27,537 bases of DNA, from positions 1 to 27,537 of IMG/VR virus record IMGVR_UViG_3300020411_003003; one strand, 5' to 3'. The notes below the pieces were generated by a model, which was given only the letters and a program-made list of their open reading frames with translations, was not told where the DNA came from and did not search any database. Source of the DNA: a virus. How positions within the stretch are numbered: the stretch's first letter is position 1; every line of letters starts with the position of its first letter. The position numbers and the translations under genes were made by a program. Positions 1,246 through 23,096 of the stretch are shown in pieces.

Positions 1246-1611
1246 ATGGCCGAACTCAAACGTGATATAGTAAAATATATTCGAGACAAAGCGAAGAATA
1301 AGTACAAGAAAGGATCAGAGTGCTATATTTGCGGGGCAGAGACTCAACTTGATTTTCACCATTACTATACTTTAGCCCCTTTGGTACATAAGTGGCTTCG
1401 AGAAAATAAGTTAGATCCAAAGTATATTCTCGCAATTAGAGAAGATTTTATAGAGGAACATCATGATGAGTTATACGTCCATACTGTTACTCTATGTCAT
1501 CAGCATCACCGACAACTTCATAAAGTATACGGTAGAGACCCTGGTTTAGGAACAGTACATAAACAGAAGCGCTGGGTAGAGATACAAAGAGAAAAACATG
1601 GCATGGTATGA
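1246..1611 (+). CDS. HNH endonuclease-like protein
   Basis: The 121-residue product has the layout of a small HNH nuclease. A zinc-knuckle pair C26-x-x-C29 is followed by an Asp-Phe-His-His stretch (36-39) and a second motif with C84, H87, H88 and H92 (TLCHQHHRQLH). These fit the metal-binding and catalytic positions of the beta-beta-alpha-metal fold. Between them is a helical insert, residues 44-75, rich in charged residues. HNH proteins beside the terminase and portal are known in HK97-like phages, where they assist terminase cleavage of packaged DNA, so a packaging role is the leading inference; a selfish homing nuclease is the alternative. It is the first gene after promoter P1. No clear Shine-Dalgarno sequence precedes the ATG. 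Its last 14 bases overlap the portal start, suggesting coupled translation. Confidence 0.82.
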   Translation: MAELKRDIVKYIRDKAKNKYKKGSECYICGAETQLDFHHYYTLAPLVHKWLRENKLDPKYILAIREDFIEEHHDELYVHTVTLCHQHHRQLHKVYGRDPGLGTVHKQKRWVEIQREKHGMV

Positions 1612-2797
1612 CAGGTTCTTAGGCCGAAAAGAAGAGGATATTTATGAAAAATTAAATCCTGTTCAGCAGTATTTTGGCTCGGAGTCACAATCTTCTCGTG
1701 AGCATACTCAGAGTTATGAAAAATACTATGAGACTCTGGAAATTGTTAACCGTGCAGTAAATATGGTTGTAGATGATTGTGCAGAAATACCTGCAGTAGT
1801 ACAGCCTATTGGAATGTCAGGAGTTGTCAAAGGAATAAAGCGTTCAAAAGTTCAAAAACTTATAAATGAGGAACCAAACCTATTTCAAGACATTAGCTCC
1901 TTTAAGCGTAATTTAATTACTGATTTTATTCTTGATGGCAATATTTTTATCTACTATGATGGTGCTCATTTTTACCATATCCCTGCCTCCGATGTTACAA
2001 TCCATGCAGACCCAAAGACCTTTATCAATAGGTATACATACGCTGAAGTAGACTATTCTCCTGATGAGATTATTCATATAAAAGAAAATTCTTTTCATGA
2101 TATCTACAGAGGAGTTTCTAGATTAAAGCCTGCCGTTCGTACTATGTCTCTGATGGCAAATATGCGAGAGTTTCAAGATAATTTCTTTAAAAACGGGGCT
2201 GTGCCAGGACTAGTTTTAAAAAGCCCTAATACTTTGTCGGAGAAGATTAAAGAAAGAATGTTACAATCCTGGCAAGTAAGATACCAGCCTACAGCAGGAG
2301 GCAGACGGCCTTTAATTCTGGATGGCGGTATAGAAATAGATGCTATTTCAAATGTTAACTTCAGAGATCTAGATTTCCAGAGTTCTATAGCTGAAAACGA
2401 AAAGATTATATTAAAGGCGTTAGGAGTGCCCCCAATTTTATTAGACTCAGGTAATAATGCAAATATACGTCCGAATATGAGGATGTACTACTTAGAGACT
2501 ATATTACCTATAGTAAGAAAAGTTAACTTTGCACTGGAAAGGTTTTTTGGTTTTAGTATAAAGGAAGACATTACTAATATTCCTGCCTTACAGCCTGAAC
2601 TACGTGATCAATCGCAGTATTATACTTCCCTAGTAAATGGTGGAATTATAAGCGTAAATGAAGCCAGAGAACAACTAGGTTTCGAAATGTTAGAGGGGCA
2701 GGATGATGTTAGAGTCCCTGCAAATATTGCTGGAAGCGCGGCTAACCCCGACGAAGGCGGAAGACCTGTTGAGGATTCAGAGGAGTCAGAAGAATGA
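1598..2797 (+). CDS. Portal protein, HK97 family
   Basis: This is the dodecameric ring at the capsid vertex through which DNA enters and leaves; it nucleates head assembly and binds terminase and connector. The 399-residue length matches HK97-type portals. Family-like features are the N-terminal NRAVNMVVDDCAEIP segment at about 51-65, the central wing/stem sequence, the ALGVPPILLDSG stretch near 274 followed by a long helix, and a C-terminal GIISVNEAREQLGF motif near 348-362. The last 20 residues are acidic (Glu, Asp, Ser) and probably disordered. It overlaps the HNH gene by 14 bases and the next gene by an ATGA. The position after the terminase and before the protease is the standard one. 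Confidence 0.93.
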   Translation: MAWYDRFLGRKEEDIYEKLNPVQQYFGSESQSSREHTQSYEKYYETLEIVNRAVNMVVDDCAEIPAVVQPIGMSGVVKGIKRSKVQKLINEEPNLFQDISSFKRNLITDFILDGNIFIYYDGAHFYHIPASDVTIHADPKTFINRYTYAEVDYSPDEIIHIKENSFHDIYRGVSRLKPAVRTMSLMANMREFQDNFFKNGAVPGLVLKSPNTLSEKIKERMLQSWQVRYQPTAGGRRPLILDGGIEIDAISNVNFRDLDFQSSIAENEKIILKALGVPPILLDSGNNANIRPNMRMYYLETILPIVRKVNFALERFFGFSIKEDITNIPALQPELRDQSQYYTSLVNGGIISVNEAREQLGFEMLEGQDDVRVPANIAGSAANPDEGGRPVEDSEESEE

Positions 2798-3084
2798 CAG
2801 AAAAGAAAAAACCATTACATGAAAGGCAAAGGATGTTATCCTTGAAATACTTTGCAAGTACTTCTGTAGAGCAAGGGTATCTTATAAGCAAGGAGGACGC
2901 ACTGAAAACCAAATGGATGGACGAGTCTTACCTTGATGATGAGGTTTGGTTCAGTTCCTGGGATAGTATTATAACAACTATGAAAAGAGTTTTCCCAGAA
3001 ACTGCGAGCCTGAAACCAAAAGCTAAAGTGGCCCCAAAAGCGAAAAAAGAGGGCTCGGGAGGAGAGAATGGAAAAAGTATTTAA
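2794..3084 (+). CDS. Small unknown protein between portal and protease
   Basis: I do not recognise this 96-residue protein. Its ATG overlaps the portal stop as ATGA, and AGGAG at 2781-2785 lies at good spacing, so translation is well supported. The first 70 residues are mixed and aromatic (Tyr, Trp, Phe) and look folded. The last 25 are Lys-Pro-Ala-rich (KPKAKVAPKAKK) followed by a Gly/Ser/Glu tail, like a flexible basic tail. Its 3' end overlaps the protease-capsid gene by 17 bases in another frame, and that overlap contains the next gene's start. Context suggests a head-assembly accessory role, but nothing in the sequence names it. Confidence 0.75.
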   Translation: MTEKKKPLHERQRMLSLKYFASTSVEQGYLISKEDALKTKWMDESYLDDEVWFSSWDSIITTMKRVFPETASLKPKAKVAPKAKKEGSGGENGKSI

Positions 3085-5014
3085 TTTAACCTCTACTTTT
3101 AAGTCTCATACTGAGGATGATGGTAGTATTAAAATCAGAGGTATGGCTAGTACAACTGACTTTGATCGCGCGGGTGATTCTATTTCAGCGGATGCTTGGA
3201 CTAAAGGTGGGTTAAATAACTTCGAGAAGAACCCTATAATTCTTTTCAATCATGATTACAATAGACCGATTGGTAGAGCTACTAAAGTAAAAGCTACTGA
3301 TGGAGGTCTTGAGTTAACGGCAAAAATTAGTAAGGCGGCTAAAGATGTAGCTGAACTAGTTAAAGACGGTGTCCTTGGAGCCTTTTCTGTTGGTTTCCGA
3401 GTCAAGGATGCTGATTATATTGAGGAAACCGACGGATTAAGAATAAAGGACGCTGAGTTGTTTGAGGTATCGGTAGTATCTGTACCTTGTAACCAAACAG
3501 CTACTTTTTCACTGGCGAAGTCCTTCGACTCCATGGAGGAGTACGAAGATTTCAAAAAAACTTTCACTAATAGTGACGGGGCGCAAGTCCAAAAGGAGAT
3601 AACGATGTCTGAAGAGACACAACAACCCGTTGACTTGGAAGCTTTTGCTAAAAAAGTAGCTGAGGAAACTGCTGCTAAAATTGCAATGAAGCAAGCCGAG
3701 CAAAAAGCTGCTGATGAAGCAGCACAAAAAGAAGCTGCTGAAAAAGCTGCTGCGGAAGCAGAAGCCAAGGCTCAGCAGGACGAAGAAGTCAAGACGGCTA
3801 TCAAAACTGGCGTAGAGTCAGGAGCTGACCGTCTTGTACAAGACATGCAAAAAGAATTCGAAGCTGCAAAAGCTGAAGAAATCAATGAGCTTGTTAAGAA
3901 GTACGAAGCCGACGTTAAAGAGAAGGCTGACGAACTCGAAGCTATGCGTAGCCGTAAGTTTGAGTTTAGTTCTCAGAGCAAAGAAGACTTTGCAAAAGAA
4001 GCTCTTCACGCTAAAGTCTACGGCGCGATTACCAAGAAAGGTTGGGATACTGACCTCGGTAAGGAAGTCATGGAAAAGCAAGGTGTAGACTTTGGTACAC
4101 GAAGCTCTGCTGGTAATCTCGATATTACTGTAAGTCAACAGTTCGAAGAAGAAGTTGCACTTGAGACTAAACTTGCTGGATTGTTCCGTGAAATTCCTGT
4201 AACTTCAGGAGCCACAGTTATGCCTTTTGCTGCAGATACTAATGCTGCAACTTTCGGTACATCTTTTGATGTTGATACTGCTAATCAGCGTATTGATAAT
4301 GGTGGAACTAATGGACAGTGGGACGTTACTAATAACGTACTACAAACTGAGCGTTTGGCAGCAGGCACCTATATTGACAACAATATAGATGAGACTTCTT
4401 TGGTTTCATTCCTACCAATGATTACCTCAGCTCTCGCACGTTCCCACGCTGTAGCAATCGATAAGATGATTCTTCTCGGTACTAGCGGACCTACTGCTGG
4501 TATTGCAGGCGGAGACGGAACCGATAAAGGCTCTGGTCTACAAGCATCTACAGCAGCTTGTACTGCACAACAAGACGGTGCACCTGCATTCGCAGACTCC
4601 ATGCTTGAAATTGGTCGTGCAACAATGGGCAAATATGCAGTTAACCCTGCTGATATTGTCTACGTTGTTACTATCGATGCTTACTATGATCTACTCGCAC
4701 AAGCGGATGGAAAGTTCGTGACTGTAGATAAGGCTGGATCTGATCTGGCTACTAATATCAACGGCATGATGGGTACTATATTTGGTTCGCCACTTATTGT
4801 TTCCGCAGAAATGGTTGCTGCTAACGCAAGTACTGCAGCTGCTATTATCAACACCAGCCGATATGTTATTGGAAGACTCAAGGGTGTTAGCATTGAAACC
4901 GACTACGAAGTTGGTAAGCAGCGTAATGTTCTGGTCGCTAGCCAGGCATTAGGATTTAAGTCACTTGAAGGTACTTCAGGTGCTCATACCTTAACTTACG
5001 CGTCTAACGCTTAA
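3068..5014 (+). CDS. Prohead protease-scaffold-major capsid fusion protein (HK97 fold)
   Basis: A single 648-residue reading frame carries three head-assembly modules. Residues 1 to about 155 resemble the HK97-type (U35) prohead serine protease: FNHDYNRPIGRA with likely catalytic H62, GAFSVGF with likely nucleophile S107, and ELFEVSVVSVPCN with E133. Residues about 180-305 are an Ala/Glu/Lys-rich coiled coil, like the delta/scaffold domain that directs shell assembly and is digested later. Residues about 345-648 look like an HK97-fold capsid protein: an N-arm beginning near SAGNLDITVSQQFEEEV, an ALARSHAVAIDKMIL spine-type helix near 450, then the beta-rich A-domain. In HK97 protease and capsid are separate genes; here they are fused. 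The start has a very strong ribosome binding site (GGGAGGAG, 3057-3064). A second, in-frame site precedes Met180 and is listed separately. Confidence 0.9.
   Translation: MEKVFNLTSTFKSHTEDDGSIKIRGMASTTDFDRAGDSISADAWTKGGLNNFEKNPIILFNHDYNRPIGRATKVKATDGGLELTAKISKAAKDVAELVKDGVLGAFSVGFRVKDADYIEETDGLRIKDAELFEVSVVSVPCNQTATFSLAKSFDSMEEYEDFKKTFTNSDGAQVQKEITMSEETQQPVDLEAFAKKVAEETAAKIAMKQAEQKAADEAAQKEAAEKAAAEAEAKAQQDEEVKTAIKTGVESGADRLVQDMQKEFEAAKAEEINELVKKYEADVKEKADELEAMRSRKFEFSSQSKEDFAKEALHAKVYGAITKKGWDTDLGKEVMEKQGVDFGTRSSAGNLDITVSQQFEEEVALETKLAGLFREIPVTSGATVMPFAADTNAATFGTSFDVDTANQRIDNGGTNGQWDVTNNVLQTERLAAGTYIDNNIDETSLVSFLPMITSALARSHAVAIDKMILLGTSGPTAGIAGGDGTDKGSGLQASTAACTAQQDGAPAFADSMLEIGRATMGKYAVNPADIVYVVTIDAYYDLLAQADGKFVTVDKAGSDLATNINGMMGTIFGSPLIVSAEMVAANASTAAAIINTSRYVIGRLKGVSIETDYEVGKQRNVLVASQALGFKSLEGTSGAHTLTYASNA
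3593..3607 (+). promoter_or_regulatory. Internal ribosome binding site and in-frame ATG within the protease-capsid gene
   Basis: AAGGAG at 3593-3598 is followed after six bases by ATG at 3605-3607, in frame with the fusion gene (codon 180). It falls exactly at the boundary between the protease domain and the coiled-coil scaffold domain. That placement argues for a real second translation start rather than chance. Confidence 0.7.
3605..5014 (+). CDS. Probable internally initiated major capsid precursor (scaffold domain plus capsid)
   Basis: If ribosomes start at the internal ATG (Met180 of the fusion), they make a 469-residue protein beginning MSEETQQPVDLEAF. It would consist of the coiled-coil delta-like domain and the complete capsid domain, which is the usual composition of an HK97-type capsid precursor. 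The well-placed Shine-Dalgarno sequence supports this. The arrangement parallels lambda C/Nu3, where a scaffold is made from an in-frame internal start inside a protease gene. It would let many capsid subunits be made per protease copy. The alternative, that only the full fusion is made and every subunit carries a protease, cannot be excluded from sequence. Confidence 0.6.
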   Translation: MSEETQQPVDLEAFAKKVAEETAAKIAMKQAEQKAADEAAQKEAAEKAAAEAEAKAQQDEEVKTAIKTGVESGADRLVQDMQKEFEAAKAEEINELVKKYEADVKEKADELEAMRSRKFEFSSQSKEDFAKEALHAKVYGAITKKGWDTDLGKEVMEKQGVDFGTRSSAGNLDITVSQQFEEEVALETKLAGLFREIPVTSGATVMPFAADTNAATFGTSFDVDTANQRIDNGGTNGQWDVTNNVLQTERLAAGTYIDNNIDETSLVSFLPMITSALARSHAVAIDKMILLGTSGPTAGIAGGDGTDKGSGLQASTAACTAQQDGAPAFADSMLEIGRATMGKYAVNPADIVYVVTIDAYYDLLAQADGKFVTVDKAGSDLATNINGMMGTIFGSPLIVSAEMVAANASTAAAIINTSRYVIGRLKGVSIETDYEVGKQRNVLVASQALGFKSLEGTSGAHTLTYASNA

Positions 5015-5023
5015 TAGCATTTT

Positions 5024-5040
5024 GATTACTTTTAGTAATC
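5024..5040 (+). other. Inverted repeat (hairpin) just after the capsid gene
   Basis: GATTACT (5024-5030) and AGTAATC (5034-5040) form a perfect 7-base-pair stem with a TTT loop, ten bases after the capsid stop codon. No T-run follows directly. It may stabilise the 3' end of capsid mRNA or act with the next hairpin. Confidence 0.55.
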
Positions 5041-5048
5041 ATGGAAAC

Positions 5049-5077
5049 TGGGGGAGGTTCTCCTCCCCTAAGTTTTT
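5049..5077 (+). terminator. Probable rho-independent terminator after the capsid gene
   Basis: GGGGAGG (5051-5057) pairs with CCTCCCC (5062-5068) around a TTCT loop. The stem can extend by a G-T and a T-A pair at 5049-5050/5069-5070. A run of five T residues follows at 5073-5077. This is the form of an intrinsic terminator, probably partial because the connector and neck genes follow with no promoter that I can see. The effect would be to raise capsid transcripts relative to downstream genes. Confidence 0.7.
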
Positions 5078-5089
5078 ACTAATTGATTT

Positions 5090-5677
5090 ATGGCAGATTT
5101 AATAACATTAGCTAGTTATAAAGAGGCAGAAGGCTTGAGCACTCCAAAAGAGGACTTAAGAATTAATGCTTTAATACCTTCTGTAAGTCAATTAATAAAA
5201 ACTTATTGTGGTAATAGTTTTGTAGATTTTTATTCAAGTAATAAAACAGAAACGTTTAATATTGACTGGGGTACTTATATTGTACAGCTTACTGAGAGCC
5301 CTGTTAATGCTATCGTTAGTGTACAAGAGAGGCAGTCCTATGATGCCGCTTATGAGACTCTTACAACAGGAGCGTATGAGTACGCTTTAGACAAAAAGAC
5401 AGACAGTGTTTTTCGCACCAGCTCCGGCAGCTATAAGAATTGGGCTCAAGGAGTAGATTCAGTTAAAATAGTATATACTGCGGGATATAGTGCTGTTCCA
5501 GACGATTTAAAACTGGCAGTAATTGATTTAATTACATACTACTTAAAAGACGAACATAAAGAGCGAAGAACAATACAAGGAGCAAGCATACAAAACGCTG
5601 CTAGTTCTTCACAACGAGACAATGTTGCTTTCCCAGACCACATTAAGAGAGTCTTAGACTTGTATAAAAATTTTTAG
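5090..5677 (+). CDS. Head-tail connector protein (gp6-like adaptor)
   Basis: This 195-residue protein fits the HK97 gp6 / SPP1 gp15 connector family, which forms a ring beneath the portal. It begins with an alpha-helical segment (INALIPSVSQLIKTYCGNSF, about 26-45), has a beta-rich middle insert with TESPVNAIVSV, and ends with the family-typical sequence VPDDLKLAVIDLITYYLKDE (about 136-155) and a C-terminal helix. Its place directly after the capsid gene is standard. The ATG at 5090 follows the terminator-like hairpin and lacks an obvious Shine-Dalgarno sequence, which suggests low or structure-dependent translation. Its stop overlaps the GTG of the next gene by one base. Confidence 0.8.
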   Translation: MADLITLASYKEAEGLSTPKEDLRINALIPSVSQLIKTYCGNSFVDFYSSNKTETFNIDWGTYIVQLTESPVNAIVSVQERQSYDAAYETLTTGAYEYALDKKTDSVFRTSSGSYKNWAQGVDSVKIVYTAGYSAVPDDLKLAVIDLITYYLKDEHKERRTIQGASIQNAASSSQRDNVAFPDHIKRVLDLYKNF

Positions 5678-7050
5678 TGAGCAGTTCTTCTTTATACCAG
5701 TTCTTAAAAAAGCTGGACAAGGAATTGTCAGAAGGGGCAACAAAAGATAAAGCAGCCTCGGAAGCCTATAGAACACAAAAAGGAAATAAAAAAACAAGTA
5801 CTCTTACTTATAGGCCTAGAGAAATTACTGAGGCTTTGACACATTTAACAGAGATTCCCGAAAAGTTAAGAGACGCCTATGATGCTTTAGTAGACGAATT
5901 AACTGCTGACATGAGAGTTCTTTTTAAGAAAAAAGCAGTAGAGATAAATACAAAAAGTCCGGGCGATGCTAAAGTACGGGGAAATAAATATTCTGTTTCT
6001 ATAAGAATTATAAAAAGAGGTCAAAGAGATAATTACACTTTGCTAAAAAAGATCTATGAAGAGAGATTGGATAAATTTTATACGGATTTTCTTGGTCTTA
6101 TAAATAAGCCAGGAGGTTTAAAGAGATATAGTGATTCCGCAGGTAAAGAAGTAACATTAACTAGAGGAAAAGTGTGGGGGCAGACTCACGAAGGCGGCGC
6201 TAATATTTTTCATATGATGAATGACGCAGTATATGCAGCTATTGCGCATACTGTTAAACGAGCACAAGATCCTTCCGGCACAGACATAGCAAAAGATTTA
6301 GCAAAGTTAAAAAGAGCAGATGCACAAATTATTCTAGACATAATGAAAGACGGCCCTAGGGAAGAAGTATATATGGGAATTTCTAGTGCTCTTATTAACT
6401 CCAAAGAAGGCGGAGGTATGAAAGAGCAAGGTGCAAAAGCAAATTTAGATGCTGCTATAAATTCACTAAAACCTTTTATTCTCGCTACCGAAGGCTCGGA
6501 TAGTTTATTAACGGGACGAAGAAAAAAGATAGTTAAAGAGATAGTTAAGCCTTTTAAAAATAAAAAAGGAATTAAAGTCAAGCATGAAAATATAAAAATC
6601 AAAAACAATAAAAGCAAGGTAAATTTAGTAAAAGAACCTGGTAAAACAATTATAGAAAAAGGCGCACCTCTTTCCATAATGGGCAAAAAAGCAGTAAAAC
6701 GACAAGAAAAACGGAAAGGGACAACCTCAGGAATGAGTTTAGCAAATATACTAGGAGTTCTAAATAATCAACTACCTAAAACAGTAGCTAATAACATGGG
6801 TAGTCCTAGACTTGAAAACCGGACAGGAAGATTTGCTCAAAGTGTAAGAGCTGTAGATGTAACACGAACCGCACAAGGTTTTCCGAGTATTGGCTATACT
6901 TATATGAAAGAAAGGTACGGACCTTATGAAAGCACAAGTGGATCTAGGTTTGCAGATGTAGATAGAGACCCTAGACCGTTGATTGATCAATCAATAAGAG
7001 AGATAGTAATAGGCTTTGGTTTAGGAAGACTTTATACTAGGAGATTATAA
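5677..7050 (+). CDS. Unknown neck-region structural protein
   Basis: I cannot name this 457-residue protein. It starts at a GTG that overlaps the previous TAG by one base, without a clear ribosome binding site, so it is probably translated by coupling. The N-terminal half is helical and charged. The middle (about 290-345) is a low-complexity Lys/Asn-rich stretch with several KIKNNK-like segments, probably a flexible linker. The C-terminal 100 residues are different: NRTGRFAQSVRAVDVTR, an aromatic Tyr-rich loop and DRDPRPLIDQSIREI. An R-TGRF-xS type motif occurs in some tail-completion and neck proteins of the HK97 gp10 type. Since it sits between connector and tail terminator, where head-closure and gp10-like genes belong, I infer a head-closure/tail-completion function, possibly with a long added N-terminal domain. 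Confidence 0.72.
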   Translation: MSSSSLYQFLKKLDKELSEGATKDKAASEAYRTQKGNKKTSTLTYRPREITEALTHLTEIPEKLRDAYDALVDELTADMRVLFKKKAVEINTKSPGDAKVRGNKYSVSIRIIKRGQRDNYTLLKKIYEERLDKFYTDFLGLINKPGGLKRYSDSAGKEVTLTRGKVWGQTHEGGANIFHMMNDAVYAAIAHTVKRAQDPSGTDIAKDLAKLKRADAQIILDIMKDGPREEVYMGISSALINSKEGGGMKEQGAKANLDAAINSLKPFILATEGSDSLLTGRRKKIVKEIVKPFKNKKGIKVKHENIKIKNNKSKVNLVKEPGKTIIEKGAPLSIMGKKAVKRQEKRKGTTSGMSLANILGVLNNQLPKTVANNMGSPRLENRTGRFAQSVRAVDVTRTAQGFPSIGYTYMKERYGPYESTSGSRFADVDRDPRPLIDQSIREIVIGFGLGRLYTRRL

Positions 7051-10224: not shown

Positions 10225-10677
10225 ATGGAATTAAAAAAATTAGTGGTCGACAGTAAAGCCAAATGGATAGAATTTGGTGGACTCGACGGGTTCTCAGTAG
10301 AGATAGCAAACCTCTCACGAAAAGAATTAACAGGTATACGTAAAAAGTGTACTACAACAAAGTTTAATAGAAAATCAAGACAAGCAGAAGAAGTACTTGA
10401 CGAAGATAAATTTGTTACCGAGTTCACACGTAAAACTGTGAAAAATTGGAAAGGACTTACTTTGGCGCATTTGGAAACTTTAATCCTTGTTGATATAGAT
10501 GACCAAGACCCTAGTAAAGAGGTAGAGTACTCAGAAGAAAATGCTGAAGTACTTGTAAGTCAGTCAGCAGAATTTGATACTTGGCTCAATGAGGTAGTCT
10601 TTGACCTTGATAACTTTCGTAGCGAGCCAAAAGGAAAAGTGCCTCCAAAGGCTGGAGGAGCTGTTCAAAAATCTTGA
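10225..10677 (+). CDS. Tail assembly chaperone, first component (gpG-like)
   Basis: This 150-residue, soluble, acidic protein sits between the tube genes and the tape measure, where siphophages encode the G-type chaperone that binds the tape measure during tail assembly. It starts with a short beta segment (VDSKAKWIEFGGLDGFSVEI), followed by helices with SRKELTGIRKKC and FTRKTVKNWKGLTLAHLETL. That is the common pattern for this family: a substrate-like beta module followed by a helix-rich region ending in an acidic domain. Its last 80 bases overlap an open +1 frame that continues into the next gene, as in G/T pairs made by programmed frameshifting. The short Lys/Pro/Gly-rich C-terminus (KGKVPPKAGGAVQKS) looks like a termination tail rather than a folded end. 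Confidence 0.75.
   Translation: MELKKLVVDSKAKWIEFGGLDGFSVEIANLSRKELTGIRKKCTTTKFNRKSRQAEEVLDEDKFVTEFTRKTVKNWKGLTLAHLETLILVDIDDQDPSKEVEYSEENAEVLVSQSAEFDTWLNEVVFDLDNFRSEPKGKVPPKAGGAVQKS
10627..10677 (+). promoter_or_regulatory. Candidate programmed frameshift region of the tail chaperone pair
   Basis: The downstream chaperone frame is +1 (equivalently -2) relative to the first gene and is open from 10598. Within the overlap, AAA-G at 10630-10633 and 10636-10639 would allow a +1 slip of tRNA-Lys from AAA to AAG. The five A residues at 10667-10671 would allow a -2 slip of the AAA codon at 10669 onto AAA at 10667, just before the UGA at 10675. A Shine-Dalgarno-like GGAGGAG at 10654-10660 lies upstream of the last site. 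No classical -1 heptamer is needed or seen. Frameshifting at the last site would yield a fusion of about 265 residues. Confidence 0.4.
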
Positions 10678-10684
10678 TACTGGA

Positions 10685-11020
10685 ATGACCGCAGAGCGGT
10701 ACTTCGAGATGCAAGAACAAATGGGGCTGGAGATCGAGGAGGATAAAATACCCCCTTCTATGGAAGATTTTCCAGACCTTGTTGGAAATGCGTTAGAGCT
10801 TTTTAATCGACTAGGGGATAGAGTATACCCTGAAATCGGATATATAGGAAAAGACTACACAAATCTTAAACTATATATGGATATTTACGAAATAGAGGAG
10901 GAAGATAAAGATTTTCTTCTAGAAATTATAGAATGGTTGGACGCCAGAGCTATCAAAAAGTCGCAAGAGCAATTAAAGCGAGAATATGATAAGATGAAGA
11001 GAAAGTCTAGTGGCAAATAG
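10685..11020 (+). CDS. Tail assembly chaperone, second component (gpT-like)
   Basis: From ATG 10685 this frame gives 111 residues (MTAERYFEMQEQMGLEIEED...), helical and acidic, ending in a basic helix (EQLKREYDKMKRKSSGK). The frame is open upstream to 10598, just after a stop at 10595-10597. The upstream in-frame residues (LQRLEELFKNL) look like a genuine amphipathic helix, so the mature protein may be the tail of a frameshifted G-T fusion. The alternatives are free initiation at ATG 10685, seven bases after the previous stop, with only a weak TGGA ahead, or initiation at TTG 10601. The 3' end overlaps the tape measure GTG by 11 bases. Location and the overlapping-frame design support the chaperone call. 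Confidence 0.7.
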   Translation: MTAERYFEMQEQMGLEIEEDKIPPSMEDFPDLVGNALELFNRLGDRVYPEIGYIGKDYTNLKLYMDIYEIEEEDKDFLLEIIEWLDARAIKKSQEQLKREYDKMKRKSSGK

Positions 11021-15387: not shown

Positions 15388-16203
15388 ATGGCTTTTTTAA
15401 CAGTACTACCAGATCCTTCTACTAAAAGAAGTTATTGGGGCGCAGAAGATGCAAGCGGGGATGTAGGCCCTGGATTTGCAAGTGTAAAATTAACTTCTGA
15501 TCAAAATATGATGTTGACTAGAACCAACTCTCAGCGAGTTATTTCTAGAGCCTCAGCAGGACAAAAGTGGAATATTGATATTGGATATCATCCGATGACT
15601 AGAGCAGAATTTAATCCTGTTTATACTTTTTTACTTCAGCAAAGAGGTCCTTTGAATCCTTTCTATGTAGAACTCCCACAGTATGCTAGTTCTCAGAACG
15701 CCTTATTTAATACAGATACAAATGAGTCTGGAGACGCTACTTACAATACGAACACATTCGCAACAACTGGAGCAGAGTCTGCGGGTTCAACCTCTGTTGT
15801 TCTAACTCAGCCAACCGATTGGAAGTTAAAAAATTCTGCAGGAGCAGATATTACTTCTACTGCAAATACTAATGATGAGCCCTTTAATATACCAGCTGTA
15901 GGGGATGTATGTAGTTTTACGGACACAAGCAATAGTAATCATAAAAAAGTATACATGGTTACTTACGTAGAAACATATTTTAAATACAATACTCTTCCTT
16001 CTACTGGTAACGGGGAAGCCGTAGACTCTAGAAGAATAAGAGTAGGAATAACCCCTCCACTAGCAAAAACTGTTAGTTCGGGTTCTACTGCAAAATTTAA
16101 AGGAGTGCAGTTTTACGTAATTTTACCCACCGCAGTTAGAGAATATTCTCTAGGAACGGACAATCTTTATAAATTTAACTTAAAGCTAGAAGAATATTTA
16201 TGA
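15388..16203 (+). CDS. Distal tail / minor tail protein (lambda gpM-like region)
   Basis: This 271-residue protein follows the tape measure by one base, where distal tail or minor tail proteins lie. Residues about 48-101 (SQRVISRASAGQKWNIDIGY, then MTRAEFNPVYTFLLQQRG, then NPFYVELPQY) match the general form of minor tail proteins of the lambda M kind: a beta-strand pair, a helix with FxPVYxFLLxQRG, then a VxLP strand. A Thr/Ser/Asn-rich insert (about 105-200) follows. The C-terminus returns to a beta core ending YKFNLKLEEYL, a typical strand pair closing the fold. It probably forms the ring between tube and hub. It overlaps the hub gene by ATGA. Family placement is by pattern; Dit-type is an equivalent reading. 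Confidence 0.72.
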   Translation: MAFLTVLPDPSTKRSYWGAEDASGDVGPGFASVKLTSDQNMMLTRTNSQRVISRASAGQKWNIDIGYHPMTRAEFNPVYTFLLQQRGPLNPFYVELPQYASSQNALFNTDTNESGDATYNTNTFATTGAESAGSTSVVLTQPTDWKLKNSAGADITSTANTNDEPFNIPAVGDVCSFTDTSNSNHKKVYMVTYVETYFKYNTLPSTGNGEAVDSRRIRVGITPPLAKTVSSGSTAKFKGVQFYVILPTAVREYSLGTDNLYKFNLKLEEYL

Positions 16204-19200
16204 GTTTAAGAGCACTACATGCAGATGTTCAAGGGTCTCTCTTAAAAGGAGACTCTTTTGTTTATGCGCACTTATTAAAGTTTGAGAGAGTAATAAAAAC
16301 CCAAAGTGCAAAACCTTCTGAATCTGCCACCGATTATTCCTATGTTACGGATGCTTCCGTCGATATTTCTTGGGATGATGGTAGTAAAGATGTTTCAGAC
16401 GACCCTAATGGGGCACAAACCTATATAGCAAATCGTCTTTTAAAAGTCGGTGGAATTAATGAAACAACTGAAGCTAAAGCCTCTAATTTAGCAGTTACTG
16501 TATCTTCCGTTGCTCTAGGCGCTACCATGGTAGGTAGCGCTTCCAACAGAATAAACCTCACTAGAGTCAATACTAGTACGTATCCCTATACTGGTGCTTT
16601 AACTTTGCTTGATTCAAATGTTGATGATTGGATTGAGAGCGGTTTTTCAGAGGGGGACAAGGTTACAATTACCCATCCAACTAGTGATTGGAATGGTCTA
16701 GAGGCGACAATAGACACTTTCACAGGGGATAATAAAACAGCAAATATTACTTTCGTCGGAAAAACCCAACCTGCTGCTTATCAAGTTAATCAATCCAATG
16801 TTACTGTTGATTTATCAACGGATGAAGTTGTTGCAATCTTAAATGATCCTAATAGTACTACTTATGCTGGTTATATAAACAGAGAAGTTTTTATATATAA
16901 AGCACATATAAATCCTGATACAGGCGCCATTATTGGCGAGCCTTATTTAGTATTTAAAGGAATTATTGCTAAAGCTAAACTATCAGAAGATCCTTCTAAA
17001 GATTCAAAAGTTACATGGTCTCTAACAAGTCATTGGGGTGATTTTGTAAGAATTAATGGACGTAGAACCTCAGACGGAGACCACAGAGCGCTTTCAAATA
17101 AGGGCGCCCCAGATCCTTCCTCTTTGCATAGATTTGAGTATGCGGGTGATATGGGATTCATGCATAGTGAGACAGCAGTAAATATTATTGCAATATACCA
17201 AGTAATGGAAACTCGGTATAAGATGAAAAGCTCTGGATTTCTTGGTCTGAAGAAAAAGATGAAAGAGTATCAAGTAGAAGTCGATAGAGATGTCGATTTA
17301 CGGATAAATTTAGAAGCTAAGTATTTACCTATAATTTATGGAGTTAATAGAGTTGATAGTATTCCGGTTTTTGCGGATTCGTTAAAATCAGACTCGGCAA
17401 TGATTTACGTTGTATACGCAATATGTGAAGGAGAAGTTAGCGGAATTTATGATATTTATGTTGATGATCAGTCCCGAATATGCATAGATAAAAATGATAA
17501 TGATACTAGAGCTACTCAAACGGCAGAGAAAACAATTGATGTAATATGCGAAGGTCGAATGGATCGAGGAGATACCTTAAGTTCCTCAGCTACCTCCAAT
17601 AGAGCATCAGGAGTTAACACAGGCCTTCCTATGGGAGGAGGCGCCTTTCTGGGGCCTTTCGGCAATACTTTATATTATCTTCAAGGTCGTAACTTTGGGC
17701 GTAATAGAGCCCCTGTAATTAATAATAATTCTGATGCTGGTGTAACCCACGAGAAACAAACCACATTAGAATATCCTATTAAAACTACTCTACAGTTTCA
17801 TGCAGGACGCCCTTACCAACGGGCTAACGACATGCTTACTGGTATTGCTTCTGGTGGTACAGGAAACGGAACAGGGGGTTTCAAACTTCAAGGTGATCTA
17901 GCAGAGGATAAAGATAATTACTGGAATGCAAATCATAGATTACTTGATACTGCCTATGTAGCTGCAGAGTTTGAAATTGCTGAAGGGGATGTAACAATCC
18001 CTCAACTTGATTTTGTTGTTCGAGGAAAAGAAATTGAACAATACAATTATGATTATTCTTATAATGTGGCACCGAATGTATTGCCTGCTACAGCAGCTAC
18101 TTTACGAAGCACTTATTTTAAAGTAGGCGATAAAGTAGATTTTTACGACGGAGCAGGAAATGCTTTAGCTCAAGACGTTCAAATAGCAGCCTTAAATAAA
18201 TATATAAACTCTAGGGAAGAGGAGATATGGAAGTATAGATTTGTTTCCGACCCTTTAAATGGACAAGCTAAAACGTCCTTCAAAATGGTCGTAAATGGAG
18301 AAGCTCATAACCATGCTAGTGCATATTGGATGGTTACGTGGGATCATAAGGCATTATCAAGTAATGTTCTGACTAAAACGCTGACTAAACCGGTAACTAC
18401 AAATAACTCAGACAGCAACGCTACCATGACCGATAATAACACTACTGGCGGAGTTGACATAACTAATCTACCTACTGATTTACAAACGTGGATAGATTAT
18501 TTAAAAGCTACAGGCGGTCTTACCATTTCGATAATGGGGACTAGCTTTACCATTACAGCAGAGGATCTATTAGCAAATTTAGCGCAGTTTACGTTAGACA
18601 GTGAAGGAACAAATCCTACCGTAAAAACTAACGGCTCTGATACAGAACTAGAATTACCAACAGGGGAGTCTGCAGGAGGTGATATATTAATAACAAACGG
18701 CCTTTATATTGGTGATGCAACTGGTGTAGTAACTTCAACTACTGAGAACCCAACATTAAATGATGATTACTATAAAGGGCAGCGAGTAAGAATTACTCAA
18801 ACGGACGCTAATGGGGGTCTAAAAACTCAAACCAGAGAAATTATTGGCTATGACGCTTCAGAAAAAATAATATATACAGGAAGCTTCGGGCCTATAGAGG
18901 AAAATTCCGCAAGTGTAGGTAACTTTACTTGCGCAGATACACGGCCCTACCCTACTAGGACTGCTAAACTGACTTCTGTGTCGGGTTTAACTGTTGGCAA
19001 CGTAATTGAAAGAGTCCTTTCAACAACAAGTGGCGCTAATGCTTATATACCTCTTGATACAAAAATTACTAATATTGATACTACAAATAAGATTATAACT
19101 GTTGACAAAGACTGCTCCTTTCCAAAAGACTCTATTGTTTCTAGTGCGGTATCTACTAATTCTTCAAGTACGGTTGCTACCGCGCACCCCTTTGAGTTCA

Positions 19201-22200
19201 TGCCTTTGGGTACAGATAAAAGTTCTGTTGCTAATACTAAATGGGAGATTTTACCTCCTGGAGATACGAAAGTATCCATTAACCCAGCGGCTCAACTATT
19301 AGATTACTTAATAAATGATCGATACGGAAAAGGATTAGACCTAGATAAAGATATAGACTTACCGAGCTTTCAGGCCACGATGCGAGCTTGTGATACACGT
19401 TCTGATGTAACTTTAGTTCTTCCTGACGGCACTTATAATGTAGGGGATAAATACTCTCTTACTACAACTGTGGATGTGGACGGTACTGCTACTAACTTTT
19501 TTCAGTGGCAAGGCACAGTAAAATCTAGTTATGCTATACCCTCAGGAACTTACGCTGCTTATACGACGGTCACATTTACGGATTGTATCGGAAAAATAGC
19601 CCATAAATGGTATAACTGGAAATCTTTTGATAGAGGTAATATAATATACCATAAAGTAGGGGATGTTAATAGAATATATCGAGTAGATACTACTGGTGTT
19701 ATATCTACTGCACCTAGTGGAGGAAATGCCACTACTTTAACAATTACTAAAGAAGGCGGCGGAAATGTAAATGTCTTTTTAGGTGCAGATGTTTCAGGCA
19801 ATGGTGGATCAACCGCTACGGAATCTTCATGGGATCATAATCCCGTTGTAAAAAACTATGATTCAGACGAGGGTAACTTTTCTCCTAGCGGATATTCACT
19901 ATATGACTCCGATGACGTAAAGTATTGGAGATACTTAGGTTGGCAAAACCACAATCAAGATGAAGTAACTCGCCATCAAACTAATTGTGTAATTAGAAGC
20001 GAAACTCCCTTGTTTGATAACGTTAATTCAATGTTAGAACACTTTAATGGTATATTAAGGTATTCTAATGGAAAGTACGAATTAGACTTAAAAACTGAGG
20101 CACCTACTATTCCTTCTACCATAACTTATGGCGGAATCGCTTATACTGAACCTAGACGAATTCATGCAGATGATATTATTGGAACTATTACTGTTGATGA
20201 TGCGGGATTAAAAGGTAGCGCGAATACTGTATCAGTAGGTATATCAGACCCTGCAATAAGATATGATAAACGCAGCGTAAGTTTTTATAATAGTGAATAT
20301 TTAAAAGAAGATAGAGGAATACCTAAGAAAAAAACAGTAAAAACTCCTTTAATAACTAACTATTTTAATGCTAGAATGAACGCTGAGCAGTATTTAATTG
20401 ACTCTCGATACGCAAGAAAAATTAGTTTTCAACTAGGTCCTCAAGGTGCTTTATTATTAGCAGGGAGCGTAATTTTAATAACTTATCCTCGTTTTGGTTG
20501 GGAGAATAAGGAATTTAGAATCTCTAACTTACAGATAAAAGAGGATTGTTTAGTACAAGTAACTGCAGAAGAACACGATGATTCTGTTTATAAAATAGGA
20601 GCAAAGAAACGAGCACTTGGTCCAAATGCAGGAGGCAGAAGTGCGGGAGGTACTGGTAGAGCTGGAGGAGGCGGCAAAGCTCCTGATAATCCTACAGGAT
20701 TAACCGCCACAGGTACAAATAATGCCATTAATTTAGCATGGGATAATGCTGGAAATTTTGGATATAAAACAAAAAAAGGCAAGAATATGGAGGTTGCCTG
20801 GAATACTGTTATCTATAGAAATACTAGTAATAGTTTTGCTAGTGCGGTTCCGATTACAACATTTTCGCCTACAACAGCCTCTGAAGCTATAACTTCGTAT
20901 AAAGATCCTTTTCCAGATATTACTTCTGATACAACTTATTATTACTGGATTAAGCATGTACGAAGCGGAATAAGTTCTGTTGTTCATCCCACTGCAGCTA
21001 ATGGAACAGATGCAGGGAACGGAGTAAGTGCAACCGCTATATCAGTTGGGGGTTCTACTGGTATTTTATACTTGTACAAGAGTTCAATAAATGAGCCTAC
21101 TGATGACCCAAGCGATGACAATTTATTTCCTACTGTAACTGTTACTTTATCAGGAACTGATGCGGGTAAAATTACAGGAGTTCCCTCTGGGCAGGGCTCT
21201 GCTGCTCTCACAAATAATCAAATTATAGATACTGCAGGCAATGGTACAGGATGGTATATTGAACCAGTAGATCCAACAGACGAAGATCATGTTGTTTGGG
21301 TAGTTGCAGGAACCGGCAGTAGTAGTGGTTCAACAGATGAAATTGCAAGAGCAGAGTGGACAGAACCTGTTAAATGGTCTGGAGGAACAGGGTTAAGCAC
21401 AGCACAAGTAACTCTATATCAACTAACGAATAGTTCTAGTGCTCCTGCGGACCCAAGTGGAGATCTTGTTTATACTTTTGCTTCGCAGGCACTTACTACT
21501 AATAATTTAAATAATTGGACTACAGCTGCTTCTTCTCCTTCGGCAAATAATCAGTATTTATGGAGAATAACTGCCGCAGCTATAGGCAGAAAGGATACGC
21601 ATACTATTCCTGCGGCAGACTGGTCGGCTGCAGTAATTCACTCACAATTTGTAGTAGGCGGCACAGGAACGGATGCTAAAGCAGTAAAATTAACTGCGAA
21701 TAAATACGCGATCCCTTTTACAGAGGCAGGAACAGAAAGCTCCACTTTAACCTTTACAGCGACCCCTCAAGGACTCACAGGAACAGGAACTTATAAATTC
21801 GATGTAGATGCGGGCAGTGGTTTTGTAGAGAAGCAAGCTGCAAGTACTACTGCTACATATACAATGGCGCAAAACGATGAGCCAACTTCTGGGGATGCTC
21901 ATGTTGTTAAAGTAACTATGTATGATGGGGGTACTTCAGTTGCAACTGATTCCGTCTCTGTTTATGGAGTTCAAGATGGTTCTGATGCTTTAACTGTTGT
22001 ATTTACAAACGAAGCGCATGTTATGCCTGCCGCTACTAATGGGACCGTCAGTACTTACGCAGGGTCAGGAACAGATATACGAGTTTATAGAGGCGCTACT
22101 TTATTAACTGCTGCAACAAGTGGAACAACTACAAATACCTTTAAAGCTACAGCAAGTGCTTCAAGTATAACTGCTTCCTCCTCGACAGGAAGTACCGCAA

Positions 22201-23096
22201 ATGTTTTAGGTACAAGTGACACTTTAAGATATGCTGATCATAGTAATATGACAGCAGACAGTGCTTCTATTACTTATACGATAACTGTATATACTTCTGC
22301 AGGTACTACTACTATTACAAAAGTACAAAGTTTTTCAAAGAGCAAAAAAGGAGAAACCGGGGATACACCTGATGCTCCAGCGGATGGAACTGATGCAGCT
22401 AGAGTAATTACAGGAATTGTTTACTGGCAAGGGGCTGCTTCTGGCGAGACAACCTCATCTATTACTAGTGATCATAAACCTAGTAATACGGATTGTGATT
22501 ATAATTTTAATACTACTTTCTCAGATAGTGCTTTTAGTCCTGCTATCGGGGGAGGAAGTGTTGGGACCACTGATAATAGTGTTGCCAGAAATAATTGGAG
22601 CGTAACTCCTCCTGCTGCGTCATCTACTCGTGAAAAAGTGTTTTATTTACCTTTTACTGCAACTGAAACTTTATCTTCTGGAAACCACACAGGAAGCGGA
22701 GATGTAACGTTTGGAGATGTAACAGAAGGAATAAGTTTTACAGGAGTTGTAACTTTTTCAGGGGATACTTTAACTTCTGCTAATGGTAATACTATGAATA
22801 TAACAGCGATAAACGGTAGCACAATTACTACAGGATTTTTAAAAAGCTCCGGTACAGATGTTAGTTCTACAAACGGTTCCCAGTTTCAGTCTGCGGCGGG
22901 AAGAACCTATATTAATCTTGATAACGGAGCAATATCCTCCCATAACTTTAGAGTAGGCTCAGATGGCACAGTAGCACTTAGGGGCTCTACAGGCACTGGC
23001 GCAGGCCAAGGTGCAATTACGATAAATAGTGATGACCAAAAAATTGTTATAACTGATGGAACCGCAGATCGGGTAATACTTGGTAAACTCAGTTAA
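16200..23096 (+). CDS. J-like central tail hub and host-recognition fibre protein
   Basis: At 2298 residues this is the longest gene. Residues 1 to about 330 form an N-terminal beta-rich module (FVYAHLLKFERV, VDISWDDG) that resembles hub/lambda L-type sequence. About 330-1465 is J-like hub sequence, including LEAKYLPIIYGVNRVDSIPVF, TLEYPIKTTLQFHAGRPYQR, LLDYLINDRYGKGLDLD and, at its end, VTAEEHDDSVYKIG. A Gly/Arg-rich hinge (about 1467-1494) leads to a fibronectin-III-like domain (about 1495-1595). Two similar modules with LYxxxxxxPxxDPS and AxWxxPV patterns follow (about 1614-1730 and 1730-1830), then Ig-like modules ending QSFSKSKKGETG, then a third related module (about 2070-2160). The end (ITINSDDQKIVITDGTADRVILGKLS) resembles a J terminus. 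It binds the host receptor. It is coupled to the gene before by ATGA; promoter P3 follows. Confidence 0.9.
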   Translation: MSLRALHADVQGSLLKGDSFVYAHLLKFERVIKTQSAKPSESATDYSYVTDASVDISWDDGSKDVSDDPNGAQTYIANRLLKVGGINETTEAKASNLAVTVSSVALGATMVGSASNRINLTRVNTSTYPYTGALTLLDSNVDDWIESGFSEGDKVTITHPTSDWNGLEATIDTFTGDNKTANITFVGKTQPAAYQVNQSNVTVDLSTDEVVAILNDPNSTTYAGYINREVFIYKAHINPDTGAIIGEPYLVFKGIIAKAKLSEDPSKDSKVTWSLTSHWGDFVRINGRRTSDGDHRALSNKGAPDPSSLHRFEYAGDMGFMHSETAVNIIAIYQVMETRYKMKSSGFLGLKKKMKEYQVEVDRDVDLRINLEAKYLPIIYGVNRVDSIPVFADSLKSDSAMIYVVYAICEGEVSGIYDIYVDDQSRICIDKNDNDTRATQTAEKTIDVICEGRMDRGDTLSSSATSNRASGVNTGLPMGGGAFLGPFGNTLYYLQGRNFGRNRAPVINNNSDAGVTHEKQTTLEYPIKTTLQFHAGRPYQRANDMLTGIASGGTGNGTGGFKLQGDLAEDKDNYWNANHRLLDTAYVAAEFEIAEGDVTIPQLDFVVRGKEIEQYNYDYSYNVAPNVLPATAATLRSTYFKVGDKVDFYDGAGNALAQDVQIAALNKYINSREEEIWKYRFVSDPLNGQAKTSFKMVVNGEAHNHASAYWMVTWDHKALSSNVLTKTLTKPVTTNNSDSNATMTDNNTTGGVDITNLPTDLQTWIDYLKATGGLTISIMGTSFTITAEDLLANLAQFTLDSEGTNPTVKTNGSDTELELPTGESAGGDILITNGLYIGDATGVVTSTTENPTLNDDYYKGQRVRITQTDANGGLKTQTREIIGYDASEKIIYTGSFGPIEENSASVGNFTCADTRPYPTRTAKLTSVSGLTVGNVIERVLSTTSGANAYIPLDTKITNIDTTNKIITVDKDCSFPKDSIVSSAVSTNSSSTVATAHPFEFMPLGTDKSSVANTKWEILPPGDTKVSINPAAQLLDYLINDRYGKGLDLDKDIDLPSFQATMRACDTRSDVTLVLPDGTYNVGDKYSLTTTVDVDGTATNFFQWQGTVKSSYAIPSGTYAAYTTVTFTDCIGKIAHKWYNWKSFDRGNIIYHKVGDVNRIYRVDTTGVISTAPSGGNATTLTITKEGGGNVNVFLGADVSGNGGSTATESSWDHNPVVKNYDSDEGNFSPSGYSLYDSDDVKYWRYLGWQNHNQDEVTRHQTNCVIRSETPLFDNVNSMLEHFNGILRYSNGKYELDLKTEAPTIPSTITYGGIAYTEPRRIHADDIIGTITVDDAGLKGSANTVSVGISDPAIRYDKRSVSFYNSEYLKEDRGIPKKKTVKTPLITNYFNARMNAEQYLIDSRYARKISFQLGPQGALLLAGSVILITYPRFGWENKEFRISNLQIKEDCLVQVTAEEHDDSVYKIGAKKRALGPNAGGRSAGGTGRAGGGGKAPDNPTGLTATGTNNAINLAWDNAGNFGYKTKKGKNMEVAWNTVIYRNTSNSFASAVPITTFSPTTASEAITSYKDPFPDITSDTTYYYWIKHVRSGISSVVHPTAANGTDAGNGVSATAISVGGSTGILYLYKSSINEPTDDPSDDNLFPTVTVTLSGTDAGKITGVPSGQGSAALTNNQIIDTAGNGTGWYIEPVDPTDEDHVVWVVAGTGSSSGSTDEIARAEWTEPVKWSGGTGLSTAQVTLYQLTNSSSAPADPSGDLVYTFASQALTTNNLNNWTTAASSPSANNQYLWRITAAAIGRKDTHTIPAADWSAAVIHSQFVVGGTGTDAKAVKLTANKYAIPFTEAGTESSTLTFTATPQGLTGTGTYKFDVDAGSGFVEKQAASTTATYTMAQNDEPTSGDAHVVKVTMYDGGTSVATDSVSVYGVQDGSDALTVVFTNEAHVMPAATNGTVSTYAGSGTDIRVYRGATLLTAATSGTTTNTFKATASASSITASSSTGSTANVLGTSDTLRYADHSNMTADSASITYTITVYTSAGTTTITKVQSFSKSKKGETGDTPDAPADGTDAARVITGIVYWQGAASGETTSSITSDHKPSNTDCDYNFNTTFSDSAFSPAIGGGSVGTTDNSVARNNWSVTPPAASSTREKVFYLPFTATETLSSGNHTGSGDVTFGDVTEGISFTGVVTFSGDTLTSANGNTMNITAINGSTITTGFLKSSGTDVSSTNGSQFQSAAGRTYINLDNGAISSHNFRVGSDGTVALRGSTGTGAGQGAITINSDDQKIVITDGTADRVILGKLS

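Follow-up and report, generated by a model that had tools for sequence, protein, structure and literature searches.

How can a phage build its shell from hundreds of subunits when its protease and its capsid protein are encoded in one reading frame? Such fusions are annotated as single proteins, which creates a puzzle of stoichiometry, since every one of those subunits would carry a protease. We addressed this question in the window, which is the whole stretch of 27,537 nucleotides that was analysed and belongs to a group of uncultivated marine T5-like phages. The gene concerned occupies 3068..5014 on the plus strand (as do all features given below) and comprises 648 codons plus TAA in one open frame. 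A sequence-only reading had pointed to an AAGGAG at 3593..3598 and an in-frame ATG at 3605..3607 (codon 180), from which a nested product of 469 residues (3605..5014) could be made. These coordinates proved exact.

The region 3131..3538 (residues 22-157) matched the S78 (U35) prohead protease family (PF04586, E=4.6e-16), its 59.8 bits exceeding the gathering score of 21, and the PHROG assignment was head maturation protease. The putative catalytic residues proposed earlier, His62 (3251..3253), Ser107 (3386..3388) and Glu133 (3464..3466), were each invariant in 142/142 distinct genes of the family, and we infer that they are the catalytic His, Ser and acidic residues of an S78 protease. The search for solved structures with a sequence match to the protease part gave none. 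The protease is followed by a flexible linker (3569..3637, residues 168-190; pLDDT below 50), which varies in sequence and length; in-frame insertions of about 24-30 residues separate subclades of the relatives. The internal ATG lies within this low-confidence linker, about 22 residues past the Pfam domain. It does not sit exactly where the protease domain ends, as had been claimed.

The scaffold-like and HK97-type capsid domains of the sequence-only reading were both recovered. In the structure model, the delta-like scaffold domain (3635..3952) contains a long helix from residue 190 to 266 and another at 271-295. This model was based on a deeper alignment (pLDDT 73), and an 18-sequence model (pLDDT 47) was set aside. 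The capsid domain (4100..5011) has the HK97 fold of the T5 pb8 type, as evidenced by profile matches to the T5/DT57C capsids 8ho3, 8zvi and 5tjt (E about 1e-54 to 1e-57). The same capsids ranked top in Foldseek (8ho3, E=1.6e-20, probability 1.00, TM(target) about 0.67). The 458-aa chains of 8ho3 and 8zvi matched from the scaffold to near the C-terminus, and the nested product is the equivalent of the T5 pb8 precursor (458 aa); by alignment, the scaffold part is about 157 residues long here and about 159 in T5. Judging from the alignment with mature T5 pb8, the mature capsid N-terminus is expected near residue 337 (4076). The alignment of relatives also revealed a strongly conserved N-terminal scaffold segment at 3623..3709 (residues 186-214). 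This segment, VDLEAFAKKVAEETAAKIAMKQAEQKAA, is almost invariant in the clade while the remaining scaffold and the capsid diverge, and it could be a site recognised by the protease or the portal.

The gene order around the fusion is that of T5: terminase, HNH, portal, small gene, protease-capsid, head completion, tail completion and terminator, followed by major tail protein, baseplate tube, chaperones, tape measure and distal tail. From the terminase through the major tail protein, this is the order of the Demerecviridae head cassette. The portal gene (1598..2797; PF04860, E=3e-55) is followed by a small gene (2794..3084), the end of which overlaps the start of the fusion; River4 and Stubb have a small gene at the same position. 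The head completion (head-tail adaptor) gene lies at 5090..5677 (PF24163, E=1e-19). Farther downstream, two overlapping frames, 10225-10677 and 10601-11020, are one frame apart and match tail assembly chaperone families; CCAAAAGGAAAAG within their overlap is a candidate programmed frameshifting site. A frame of 2298 residues (16200-23096) lies downstream of the distal tail gene, and its only match is a short one to Phage-tail_3 (residues 1329-1443).

T5 and other Demerecviridae share with the window the gene order, the S78 protease, the capsid fold and the scaffold-capsid fusion. However, they encode the protease and the capsid precursor pb8, with its N-terminal scaffold domain, as separate genes, whereas here both lie in one frame. 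The two genes were split in all 21 T5-like loci compared (Stubb, River4, Eos, D17 and 17 viral contigs, some of which represent the same phages). In most of them, 3-14 nt separate the protease stop from the capsid ATG, and the capsid Shine-Dalgarno (SD) sequence is at or after that stop. Since split phages begin the capsid gene at the point equivalent to 3605, the internal start would most simply be the former capsid start, kept after fusion. In some split phages, for example Stubb, the two genes already share a frame, so that losing a single stop codon would be enough to join them. A tree of concatenated protease and capsid separated the fused clade from the split taxa with a support of 0.9. 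A further fused lineage (L258/L259), whose junction also has an ATG preceded by GAGGA, was placed between the fused clade and the split taxa.

To collect relatives, we scanned viral and bacterial collections with protein patterns; the resulting set comprised 234 loci. Both domains share one intact frame in 207 of these; the remaining loci are cut by contig ends, except for two split Demerecviridae that were added deliberately. The 207 fused loci represent 142 distinct genes, and among relatives long enough to judge none is split. All 142 distinct genes have an ATG with GGAG upstream at the equivalent place; in one group (L017-L019), this ATG comes after TTGGAGACTAAA.

A lack of conservation of the internal site among relatives had been named beforehand as part of what would refute the proposal, and the outcome was the opposite. 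We counted parsimony changes for 128 distinct protease-plus-linker sequences on a tree from the protease DNA with a total length of 11 substitutions per site. The positions -10 to -6 (GGAGA) and the ATG had changed zero times and position -11 once, whereas the other linker sites from -36 to -1 had mostly changed 10-20 times each (a few sites 4-8 times) and protease third positions 16.5 times on average. GGAGA-N5-ATG is therefore invariant in 128/128 sequences within a diverging linker, although the number of independent lineages is effectively below 128, as much of the set has a closely related protease-plus-linker segment in common; even so, the tree rests on this very segment. In a synonymous-conservation scan the junction did not stand out, since mosaic descent has preserved the segments next to it too, and we relied on the tree-based count instead. 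Synonymous conservation is also high around residues 186-192.

The fusion itself is also kept: although about 300 changes are inferred at the 24 positions from -36 to -13, neither a stop nor a frameshift occurs in the linker of any relative. As 3% of single changes at these positions would make a stop, roughly nine linker stops would be expected without constraint, by a rough estimate. No separate protease or capsid gene was found in the records searched whole (single contigs of 25-83 kb).

We compared the predicted strengths of the two start sites by their duplex energies. In the window, the full-length product is preceded by GGAGGAG (3058..3064) before the ATG at 3068, with a duplex energy of -10.3 kcal/mol. 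Across the relatives, the internal site has a median of -8.7 kcal/mol and is never weaker than -5; the external site has a median of -6.9 and is weaker than -5 in 28/127. The internal site is the stronger in 87/127, and an energy of -7.4 is attained by 1.6% of other in-frame ATGs. In addition, the region of the internal site has less structure than randomly chosen positions of the gene in 119/126. A strong invariant internal site with a variable external site fits a design in which the capsid is kept constant and the protease-bearing form would be adjustable. On the window sequence alone, the internal site could be due to chance. An equally good start within 130 codons after the protease domain arose in 16% of synonymous recodings of the window sequence (p=0.16), and other fusion families were likewise not significant (combined p about 0.5), indicating that an SD-like site in one fused gene alone is no evidence. 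It is solely through conservation across relatives that the internal site becomes significant, and there the case is compelling.

Some relatives are mosaics. In relatives such as L020, L021, L022, L024 and L043, DNA identity is about 90-100% over residues 97-216, about 80% at 217-240 and about 40-70% beyond residue 240. The boundary, around residues 216-240, lies roughly 36-60 codons past the internal start and away from the fusion point, indicating that the protease moves as a block with the linker, the internal start and the first segment of the scaffold. At each of its ends, the L043 contig (82,805 bases) has a match to the start of the fusion gene (4271-6202 and 82165-82803, with 65% and 92% identity and differing lengths); the contig may represent an almost entire genome of about 80 kb or contain two protease modules.

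One alternative is that the site is conserved solely because the protease and linker form a recently spread recombination module. Mosaics with capsids about 50% identical do keep the protease and linker about 90-100% identical in DNA, and the synonymous conservation around residues 186-192 points the same way. However, on that segment's own tree the flanks changed 10-20 times at 11 substitutions per site and the motif not once, and we regard this explanation as highly improbable. A fused frame created by assembly or sequencing error is practically impossible and was ruled out, since the fusion recurs in 142 distinct genes, drawn from numerous independent samples, and in several bacterial MAG contigs. 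A different view is that only the full-length fusion is made, that self-cleavage in the linker parts the protease from the capsid, and that the motif has been conserved as a cleavage site in the peptide. S78 proteases do cut head proteins, residues E177 and M180 are invariant, and the linker is flexible and of low confidence in the model. The conservation follows the nucleotides, however. The codon at -4, before E177, is AAG, CAG, GAG or TTG (K/Q/E/L) and its third base is G without exception; the codon at -3 is fixed as GAG, though just 36% of the Glu codons of these genes are GAG and GAA is the commoner; and position -6 is invariably A, in a codon that specifies I, T, M or K. This pattern can be explained by a ribosome-binding site but not by a peptide motif. 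The ATG and its spacing also suit initiation, and the JLK-2012 family keeps AAGGA despite a shift in codon phase that changes the peptide from HKEK to KG. We consider the cleavage-site explanation unlikely.

It could also be argued that the true start of the capsid is the internal one and that the two parts share a frame only incidentally, with the fused product serving as no more than the protease. In most relatives the internal site does exceed the external one in strength, and its place is that of the capsid start in split T5-like phages. Yet no relative has regained a stop or frameshift, linker length differences are multiples of three, and the fusion frame is the sole source of protease in the records searched whole, so that any protease made is necessarily fused. 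This makes an incidental joining very unlikely. Two nested products with the capsid in excess are the best fit to the compared sequences.

We therefore hold it highly probable, as a full reading, that one gene gives two nested products, with few protease-tipped subunits and many plain ones in the shell. The protease gene of a T5-like ancestor would have lost its stop codon and read on into the adjacent capsid gene, retaining the ribosome-binding site and ATG of the latter inside the new frame. Initiation at 3068 would yield the 648-residue protease-scaffold-capsid subunit, for which peptides spanning VQKEITMSEETQQP would be specific. Initiation at 3605 would yield the 469-residue scaffold-capsid subunit with the N-terminus SEETQQPVDLEAF, the counterpart of T5 pb8. 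The rare long form would co-assemble via its own capsid domain, so that its very architecture would bring the protease into the prohead. The short form, in excess, would make up most of the shell and spare the phage a protease on each subunit. After assembly, the protease would remove the scaffold and itself, leaving the mature capsid protein from about residue 337.

The domains, the fold, the gene order and the protease-capsid fusion as such (in Gifsy-2, JLK-2012 and actinobacteriophages) are already known. The arrangement described here brings together T5-type head genes, a Gifsy-2-type fusion and a lambda C/Nu3-type nesting. In lambda C/Nu3, an in-frame internal start in the protease gene gives a shorter assembly protein in excess, and the window likewise has a conserved in-frame internal start inside a protease-containing gene. 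The resemblance to lambda that was noted earlier applies to this logic but not to the parts: the nested product of lambda is a scaffold, its capsid protein E is encoded separately and its protease is ClpP-like, whereas here the capsid lies in the same frame. In HK97 (gp4/gp5), the protease is of the S78 type and is a separate gene, so the fusion is unlike HK97, as had been stated, but the closest relative is T5 with pb8 and a separate protease. HK97 shares with the window a scaffold that is fused to the capsid protein (PMC10275583).

Other fusion families were compared at the same junction. Salmonella phage Gifsy-2 has a tripartite capsid gene, according to the title of Effantin et al. 2010 as cited in PMC8538268, and the window gene is tripartite in the same way, with protease, scaffold and capsid in one frame. 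The Gifsy-2 protease is of the ClpP type (PF00574) and its capsid is Phage_capsid_4, in contrast to the S78 protease here, and the two fusions have unrelated origins. An in-frame ATG with GAGGA upstream, at codon 221 of the capsid gene in Gifsy-2, is present at the junction in 27/27 Gifsy-2 relatives, versus 11.7 expected under recoding. The "major capsid protein" of Escherichia phage JLK-2012 likewise joins an S78 protease to an HK97-fold capsid, but of the PF05065 type and of another lineage; AAGGA and then ATG occur at its junction in 10/10 distinct sequences, versus 1.4 expected under recoding. Within each of these two families the sequences are related and are not independent trials. Many actinobacteriophages have a "major capsid and protease fusion", as described in the available part of PMC5513430, where an internal start is not mentioned; such fusions are also reported in PMC9671004 and PMC9753647. 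Their architecture is the same as here, but the nested start is patchy. A plausible internal site is present in ScienceWizSam, Mudcat, the related FP_oengus, P078, Efeko, RRH1, McGonagall and RcKai (not significant in single-sequence tests), and the Arthrobacter AN family is mixed. The Streptomyces phages Namo (L434) and Annihilus (L435) have no Met at the homologous junction position. A universal rule of nested starts in such fusions is therefore false and was rejected. Namo and Annihilus form a natural contrast set of fusions that work without a nested start.

A conserved nested start is likely in several lineages. Whether nested in-frame initiation is a recurrent, convergent means of setting the ratio of protease-bearing to plain subunits, with S78 and ClpP proteases and in T5-like, JLK-2012-like and Gifsy-2-like phages, we judge to be evenly balanced; the old capsid start would survive each fusion because the shell cannot hold a protease on every subunit. 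In the literature covered, we found no description of a nested capsid start in a protease-capsid fusion; papers on Gifsy-2, the T5 prohead and the HK97 protease fall outside this coverage and could mention one. The conserved internal start offers a simple answer to the stoichiometry puzzle and would correct the capsid annotation in many genomes. The N-terminal SEETQQPVDLEAFAK is a precise predicted peptide to seek in marine viral proteomes. The locus shows a route by which phages could turn two genes into one while retaining their independent dosage.
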